This document shows positions 21,996-23,345 of a DNA stretch of 37,775 bases, piece by piece. The DNA comes from Candidatus Sumerlaeota bacterium (GTDB lineage: Bacteria; UBP6; UBA1177): assembly GCA_007132725.1 (NCBI GenBank), contig SLOD01000063.1, positions 1-37,775 on the forward strand, given 5' to 3'. The translations under genes and the position numbers were made by a program. Positions within the stretch are counted from its first letter, which is position 1; each line of letters begins with the position of its first letter. The notes beneath the pieces were generated by a model. That model saw only the letters and a list, made by a program, of their open reading frames with translations, did no database searches and had not been told where the DNA came from.

Positions 21996-22874
21996 TTAAT
22001 GGATATGCATCTGTTTTAGCTTTAATAACGGAACGATTCTCTCCTCGTTATCAAGGTATGCGTCATTGAATCTCGCAAAATCGTATCTGCTTATTATGAA
22101 TTGCAGTCTGACAGCATATTCATCCCTGATGATAGAGTAGAGATAAAACCCTTTTGTCATATTAAAAAGGTTGTAGGGGTTTCTGGCTCTTGCCACCCGA
22201 AATCTTCTATAAGCTCTATTCCTGTTAAGATTTAACATATATACACTTATCGATTCAGATACTGAGTCAAATATCTGTATGTTCCTTTTTTTCCCGGACC
22301 AGTTGGCAGGCTGTATTCCCTCTTGGGGGTTTATAGCGACATGTCCAAACAGGTTGTTGCCCTCAAAGACAAATCGGCTTGTTCCCCAGCCGGACTCAAG
22401 AGCGGCCATTGATAAAGCGATGGGGGGTGGAATAGGAAGTATCCTCTTATTTACCAATATAAGAATTCTACTTTTCTCATCCTCAGTTATGTCAGATATA
22501 TCGTACCCTTCATTTATGATTCTGTACTTGTATAGAGTTTCGGTGAGATAGTTTTTTTCGTTTCCGGTCAACTCATCTTTAGAGAAAAGATCTTTTACCT
22601 TGTTTTTTTCTTCCAGGATCCTTTCGTTTTCAATAAGTATAAGAGGAAGAAAAGCTTTGATAAAGAAACGGACTCTCTCAACAGGTTCCAAGTCTTTAAT
22701 TTCTTCCGGGAACTCCTCTATAATTATTCTCGGGACAGCCAAAGATCTCCAATCATAGTTGAGGAGTTTGTGTGCTGTGACGATTTCTTCATAACTGTTT
22801 AAAACAATACCCTGTGAAAACAAAGAAATGTGTCCAGCCAGAAAAACTGACAGTATCAAAAGTTTTCTTTTCAT
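21996..22874 (-). CDS. Bax-like glucosaminidase-domain protein
   Basis: 292 aa with a signal peptide (1-20, ending SLFS) and a C-terminal glucosaminidase domain of the Bax/FlgJ type. LSMAALESGWGTSRF contains the probable catalytic Glu160, and FEGNNLFGH is the second signature. The C-terminal YAVRLQFIISRYDF helix also matches Bax. These enzymes hydrolyse GlcNAc-MurNAc bonds in murein. The gene converges on the SpoIID-type gene with 24 nt between stops. Its ATG lies only 12 nt behind the 3' end of tRNA-Arg on the same strand, with AAGGT as the sole ribosome-site match, so its message probably arises by tRNA processing of an hpf-tRNA-bax transcript. Confidence 0.8.
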   Translation of the reverse strand: MKRKLLILSVFLAGHISLFSQGIVLNSYEEIVTAHKLLNYDWRSLAVPRIIIEEFPEEIKDLEPVERVRFFIKAFLPLILIENERILEEKNKVKDLFSKDELTGNEKNYLTETLYKYRIINEGYDISDITEDEKSRILILVNKRILPIPPPIALSMAALESGWGTSRFVFEGNNLFGHVAINPQEGIQPANWSGKKRNIQIFDSVSESISVYMLNLNRNRAYRRFRVARARNPYNLFNMTKGFYLYSIIRDEYAVRLQFIISRYDFARFNDAYLDNEERIVPLLKLKQMHIH

Positions 22875-22886
22875 ACGAATACCTTG

Positions 22887-22963
22887 TGGCGGGCGGAGCG
22901 GGATTCGAACCCACGGCCTTTGGCTCCGGAGGCCAACGCTCTATCCATCTGAGCTACCCGCCC
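22887..22963 (-). tRNA. tRNA-Arg (anticodon CCG)
   Basis: A complete 77-nt cloverleaf with encoded CCA. Acceptor GGGCGGG pairs with TCCGCCC (last pair G-U), U8-A9, D-stem GCTC/GAGC, anticodon stem TTGGC/GCCAA with loop CTCCGGA. The anticodon CCG lies at 22927-22929 and reads CGG. T-arm GTGGG-TTCGAAT-CCCGC, discriminator G. It lies 20 nt after the hpf stop and 12 nt before the bax-like start, all on the minus strand. Confidence 0.96.
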
Positions 22964-22984
22964 GTTCAAAATCAAAAAACGGGC
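22960..22984 (-). repeat. Inverted repeat spanning the tRNA-Arg 5' end
   Basis: In the transcript GCCCGTT (starting at the last base of the hpf stop codon) can pair perfectly with AACGGGC, whose final four bases are the first four of the tRNA. Loop 11 nt, T-rich. The 7-bp stem would compete with the acceptor stem or mark the RNase P region. Confidence 0.5.
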
Positions 22985-23286
22985 TAAGACCTTCTTGAAT
23001 CTATTTTTTTTCCTTTGGATTTGATGATCTGTTTCGTGATCTTATCAACACAGAGATCTATGGATGCACTGAATTCTTTATCGTTTGATTCAGAGGCAAT
23101 AAAATCCTCTCCTTCATAGTTGACTTTAATTTCTGTAAGTTTCATATTTTTGTCTTTTTGGAATACAATGTCAACAAGAGCAGTTGCAGAAACAAGTTTG
23201 TCAACCTTGGAAAGTCTTTTGGAAGCGTAATCTTTAAGGGCACTACTGTTTTCTTCGAAACCTCTAAAAGCAAAATTGATGTTCAT
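22984..23286 (-). CDS. hpf: Ribosome hibernation promoting factor, short type
   Basis: 100 aa, matching short HPF/YfiA proteins that lack the long C-terminal dimerisation domain. The N-terminal strand MNINFAFRGFEENSSALKDY and the following KRLSKVDKL helix are characteristic, and the lysine-rich C-terminal tail matches the 30S-binding surface. HPF blocks the decoding centre and helps ribosomes dimerise or idle in stationary phase. A strong promoter precedes it (23317-23345) and GGAGG sits at 23293-23297. Hpf is often found after rpoN; here it heads a unit with tRNA-Arg and a murein hydrolase. Confidence 0.88.
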   Translation of the reverse strand: MNINFAFRGFEENSSALKDYASKRLSKVDKLVSATALVDIVFQKDKNMKLTEIKVNYEGEDFIASESNDKEFSASIDLCVDKITKQIIKSKGKKIDSRRS

Positions 23287-23316
23287 GAAAAACCTCCTGA
23301 GAAAAAACTACTATTA

Positions 23317-23345
23317 AATATACCACACCATATAACAGGTGTCAA
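23317..23345 (-). promoter_or_regulatory. Consensus sigma70 promoter for hpf
   Basis: On the minus strand TTGACA (23345-23340), 17-bp spacer, TATATT (23322-23317): a perfect -35 and a 5/6 -10. Start would be near 23310, about 24 nt before the ATG. It is probably also the promoter of tRNA-Arg and the bax-like gene. Confidence 0.7.

Follow-up and report, generated by a model that had tools for sequence, protein, structure and literature searches.

A conserved hpf-tRNA-Arg(CCG)-bax unit in one bacterial order, with a possible tRNA-encoded start of bax in two of its families

A tRNA-Arg(CCG) gene stands between hpf and a bax-like gene in the uncultured bacterial order studied here, and the best overall explanation, which we consider probable, is that the three genes work as one unit. 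In family f1, processing of the tRNA would release the bax message. In families f2 and f3, the same RNA would become either tRNA or Bax message, and this choice would be coupled to hpf.

The window (the whole stretch of 37,775 nucleotides that was analysed) carries hpf, tRNA-Arg(CCG) and the bax-like gene head to tail on the minus strand, with gaps of 20 and 12 nt. The original prediction, made from the window alone, had described exactly this layout, and the open reading frames and the tRNA were recovered where it had placed them. The features are:

23317..23345, minus strand: promoter of the unit, TTGACA, 17-nt spacer, TATATT, with TG before the -10 element (11/12 match)
23293..23298, minus strand: Shine-Dalgarno sequence AGGAGG of hpf, read from the sequence (GGAGG-type sites precede hpf in relatives)
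22984..23286, minus strand: hpf, short-form ribosome hibernation-promoting factor, 100 aa (open reading frame and profile matches)
22964..22983, minus strand: spacer from the hpf stop to the tRNA, 20 nt (7-26 nt in relatives)
22887..22963, minus strand: tRNA-Arg(CCG) with encoded CCA (ARAGORN; Rfam RF00005, 66.3 bits)
22875..22886, minus strand: 12-nt leader CAAGGTATTCGT from the tRNA CCA to the bax ATG, read from the sequence (7-15 nt in family f1)
22885-22882, minus strand: weak Shine-Dalgarno sequence AAGG in the bax leader, 7 nt before the ATG, read from the sequence
21996..22874, minus strand: bax-like secreted glucosaminidase, 292 aa (open reading frame and profile matches)

The hpf product matched PF02482 (E 3.7e-15, 56.8 bits, cut-off 23.7) and TIGR00741 (E 1.4e-11, 44.8 bits, cut-off 40.9), in keeping with the short form of HPF. 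The bax-like product contains a PF01832 glucosaminidase domain (E 1.2e-14), and its score lies under the cut-off of NF007681, 'protein bax' (69.2 versus 193 bits). The tRNA fold, the CCG anticodon and the CCA end of the intervening gene are all present according to ARAGORN and Rfam, and this gene is the sole CCG tRNA detected in the window's genome.

The phylum search covered 28 genomes, 25 of the window's order and 3 of another family (f4). A bax match was found in 23 of the 25 (18 in f1, 1 in f2 and 4 in f3), and all 23 carry hpf, tRNA-Arg(CCG) and bax in fixed order and strand. The comparison with related genomes, which the original prediction had set beforehand as a check, thus left the unit unbroken. 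The two genomes with no bax match, G016 (72% complete) and G024 (65% complete), lack bax, hpf and tRNA-Arg(CCG) together, as expected for missing contigs. Neither the tRNA nor hpf adjoins bax in the 3 genomes of f4, where the hpf frame (L085-L087) has about 193 codons and no tRNA beside it; in the window's order, HPF is the short form, about 100 aa long. No tRNA was found beside bax-like genes in f4 or in two more distant genomes, nor within 150 nt upstream in the 37 distant loci scanned. Wider regions were examined for 12 loci, and 10 of these had enough sequence upstream of hpf. Of these 10, only the g2 and g4 regions resemble the window in having hflX, dciA and folD ahead of hpf; the other 8 lack these genes there. 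The bax tree shows a large divergence within the order and groups f2 and f3 as one clade (support 94/92). The arrangement of the trio is not chance, and it was kept while the genes further upstream changed. Since hflX, dciA and folD stay only in nearby genera and the trio is found in 23/23 genomes, the trio is retained apart from its setting.

The promoter ahead of hpf is the best promoter match in the surrounding 4 kb. Of the 22 relatives with usable upstream sequence, about 20 carry a TTGACA element 57-68 nt ahead of hpf, and the -10 element of relatives follows TA...T, mostly with TG ahead. No promoter was found within the tRNA region in the genomes compared, and none is conserved in hpf or in the spacer. 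Only the window's hpf holds an internal promoter-like match of 10/12 (23174-23146), which has no conserved counterpart in relatives, and in most genomes the best match inside hpf is weaker than the upstream promoter. The tRNA and both protein genes therefore share one strand, with one promoter ahead and no conserved promoter between them. Because the hpf promoter is conserved, no internal site is, and the gaps leave no space for a further promoter, the best reading is that hpf, tRNA-Arg(CCG) and bax are co-transcribed as one unit. These results support the one-promoter operon of the original prediction, order-wide. Its statement that no room is left for a promoter except inside the tRNA stands for the short gaps, and the tRNA itself has none; the statement passes over the non-conserved match inside the window's hpf.

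In the 18 genomes of f1, the hpf stop is 7-20 nt from the tRNA, and the bax ATG follows the CCA by 7-15 nt, often without a Shine-Dalgarno sequence, so that tRNA and coding sequence are separate. The leaders of genus g3 are T-rich and have no Shine-Dalgarno sequence (tttgattATG, tttttttggcATG). In contrast, hpf has GGAGG-type sites, and most of the long neighbouring open reading frames have a Shine-Dalgarno-like site. The short leaders of f1 fit the short-leader bax message that had been predicted from the window.

The situation is different in f2 and f3, where a candidate tRNA/bax overlap is seen in 5 genomes of one clade, all of them drafts, with f2 represented by a single genome. Here the signal-peptide frame continues upstream unbroken through the whole single-copy tRNA gene, and no in-frame ATG, GTG or TTG between the tRNA and mature Bax is conserved among the 5 genomes. 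In f3 (4 genomes, 2 genera), the frame is open from the hpf stop via the tRNA into bax. The tRNA read in the bax frame is GGG CGG GTA GCT CAG TTG GAT AGA GTG TTG GCC TCC GAA GCC AAA GGT CGT GGG TTC GAT CCC CGC TCC GCC TAC CAT, and 4/4 genomes have only three starts in common: a TTG at linear tRNA nucleotide 16, a GTG at 25 and a TTG at 28. The GTG arises because linear nucleotide 26 (standard position 25) is a T in f3 but a C in f1 and f2; a C there would form the G10-C25 pair. Starts past the tRNA are not shared in f3: L050 has a GTG at +31 where L052 reads GCG, and the ATG that L051 has at +19 is missing in L049. The candidate starts in the tRNA have no good Shine-Dalgarno sequence, whereas most long open reading frames nearby have one. 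In the f2 genome (L053), an in-frame ATG precedes the tRNA by 6 nt and is itself preceded by AAGG at a distance of 9 nt. The distance from the hpf stop to the tRNA is 15, 12, 15 and 15 nt in f3 and 26 nt in f2.

An open frame alone is no evidence for an overlap, because tRNA genes are commonly open in the reading frame used by bax. What counts for an overlap is that the start codon is missing past the tRNA and that a signal-peptide n-region is needed. In f3 the hydrophobic stretch starts at the first codon past the tRNA (HLFFSVIFFFFVDVSA followed by AD, and others), therefore the n-region has to come from tRNA sequence. Past the tRNA the f3 nucleotides have diverged, with a 2-codon length difference between the genera, and the frame and the hydrophobicity are kept. 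The f3 tRNA presumably must still function as a tRNA, because the copy upstream of bax is the sole near match in each f3 genome and scores 63.5 bits in G021. This tRNA has A37 in f3 (L049-L052) and G37 in f1 and f2. G37 is the usual site of the m1G37 modification, which A37 would remove.

Three other explanations were weighed against this evidence. It is unlikely that the trio is an ordinary mixed operon throughout, in which the bax message of f2 and f3 would also be freed and translated, leaderless or with a short leader, from a non-standard start just past the tRNA. Such a start is possible in f3, bax of f1 plainly begins 7-15 nt past the CCA and often without a Shine-Dalgarno sequence, and other tRNAs of the order are likewise followed by short leaders. 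However, no ATT, ATC or CTG past the tRNA is conserved in f3, so alternative start codons there were rejected, and a non-standard start would also truncate the hydrophobic core and deprive the signal peptide of a charged n-region.

Still lower is the chance that the tRNA, and perhaps bax, is driven by a promoter inside hpf, with the neighbourhood being genomic packing and hpf regulated separately. The 10/12 site in the window's hpf speaks for it, but this site is not conserved in relatives as hpf's own promoter is, and the gene order is kept across large divergence despite the changed upstream genes. We give very little credit to stop-codon read-through in f3, which would join hpf and bax into a fusion of HPF, a tRNA-coded linker and Bax. 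The two genes do lie in one frame with a single stop between them in 4/4 f3 genomes, which may reflect shared ancestry. Against a fusion, the stop varies (TGA, TAG), HPF terminates at its usual place, the signal peptide would be buried, and the hpf and bax frames differ in f2 and in most f1 genomes.

For the unit as a whole, we therefore return to a single sigma-70-type promoter from which hpf, tRNA-Arg(CCG) and bax would be transcribed on one RNA. RNase P and 3' processing would excise the tRNA and part the hpf message from the bax message, which in f1 can yield an hpf mRNA, a tRNA and a short-leader bax mRNA. In f3, bax would be translated from the TTG or GTG inside the tRNA sequence, and in f2 from a TTG or GTG in the tRNA or from the ATG just upstream. 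The RNase P cut in f2 and f3 would then fall between, or upstream of, the elements needed for the bax start, and where it falls upstream, 3' processing would cut within these elements. Every transcript turned into tRNA would be lost as Bax message, and Bax would be made from uncut or incompletely cut RNA. The original prediction proposed that processing would release both messages and link tRNA maturation to hpf stability; as a general rule the release is contradicted in f2 and f3, where every conserved start lies within the tRNA or ahead of it and would be cut off by processing.

The hpf stop could enter this choice. Only 12-15 nt separate it from the tRNA in f3, and 26 nt in f2, so that a ribosome finishing hpf would cover the RNase P site or stand next to it and may keep the tRNA part open. 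The candidate bax starts of f2 and f3 lie about 20-42 nt past the hpf stop, a distance within the reach of re-initiation, and hpf-terminating ribosomes may re-initiate into bax. Translation of hpf would in this way favour the use of the RNA for Bax over its maturation into tRNA. We infer co-transcription, the order of processing, the start codon used and the coupling to hpf termination. Our tentative proposal, to which we give somewhat less than even chances, is that in f2 and f3 a single-copy, presumably indispensable tRNA encodes the start and the n-region of Bax, that a transcript becomes tRNA-Arg(CCG) or Bax mRNA, and that hpf translation decides between them, which would connect ribosome hibernation with one tRNA species and with remodelling of the wall. 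If this is real, tRNA maturation and translation of one RNA are mutually exclusive, and gene callers that bar tRNA/CDS overlap will misplace such starts.

Two further candidates for regulation were discarded. The hpf stop and spacer (22960-22984 in the window; the spacer of L032) can pair with the 5' strand of the tRNA in both g1 genomes, with unrelated sequences. An equally good hairpin was found in 11 of 1000 shuffled spacers for the window and in 44 of 1000 for G001, and the hairpin was rejected as it was unseen in the other genomes tested. ViennaRNA folds miss the cloverleaf for most of these tRNAs, and no argument here rests on folds. Feedback through CGG codons was also rejected, with 0-2 such codons in hpf and 1-15 in bax, tracking GC content.

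Other tRNA genes of the order also have close protein-gene neighbours. In 14 genomes of f1 and f2, 8-12 nt separate tRNA-Arg(ACG) from a downstream tadA-like gene (L014, L237-L246, L248-L250, L255), both within a tRNA-Ser/Ser/Arg - tadA - tRNA-Ser/Ser cluster; TadA is the deaminase that acts on tRNA-Arg(ACG). In f3 this tRNA is missing before tadA, which still has its downstream Ser tRNA(s). Past the second tRNA-Ser of the cluster, L247 contains a sequence that by eye resembles a small signal recognition particle RNA. Further short-leader pairs recur (L012, L215, L305; L022, L229; L021, L236), with the genes named by eye: tRNA-Gly(CCC) ahead of a gene for a large membrane-anchored protein, tRNA-Pro(GGG) ahead of a surE-like gene (7 nt in G021), and tRNA-Val(GAC) ahead of a thrS-like gene.

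In the known tRNA-tufB and tRNA-Trp-secE operons, a tRNA immediately precedes a protein gene on one transcript, and the present unit resembles them in this placement. There the start codon comes after the tRNA and no bases are shared, unlike the unit of f2 and f3. In the window's genome, a tRNA-Trp lies 24 nt before a short open reading frame resembling secE. In animal mitochondria, tRNAs punctuate a long transcript into messages, and tRNA and coding sequence may share bases. The unit described here is similar in that tRNAs would cut the transcript and that a gene may share tRNA bases, but it lies on a bacterial chromosome, and the overlap would concern the 5' end of a signal-peptide coding sequence that shares its strand with a single-copy tRNA.

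The literature searched on tRNA overlaps gave mitochondrial cases and work on polycistronic tRNAs of E. coli (PMC3985628), and the one tRNA overlap retrieved for bacteria (PMC3203893) concerns phage attachment sites. Mixed mRNA-tRNA operons are thus already known; a bacterial tRNA gene that carries the start of a downstream gene, let alone a conserved one, was not found in the freely accessible full-text literature searched. A close bacterial parallel is the E. coli secG-leuU transcript; like that of metT, it is polycistronic, and RNase P processes it (Mohanty and Kushner 2008, cited in PMC3985628). There, as would be the case here, mRNA and tRNA share one transcript and RNase P separates them. 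Compared with secG-leuU, the present unit has protein genes on both sides of the tRNA and gaps of 7-26 nt, and in f2 and f3 the downstream frame enters the tRNA.
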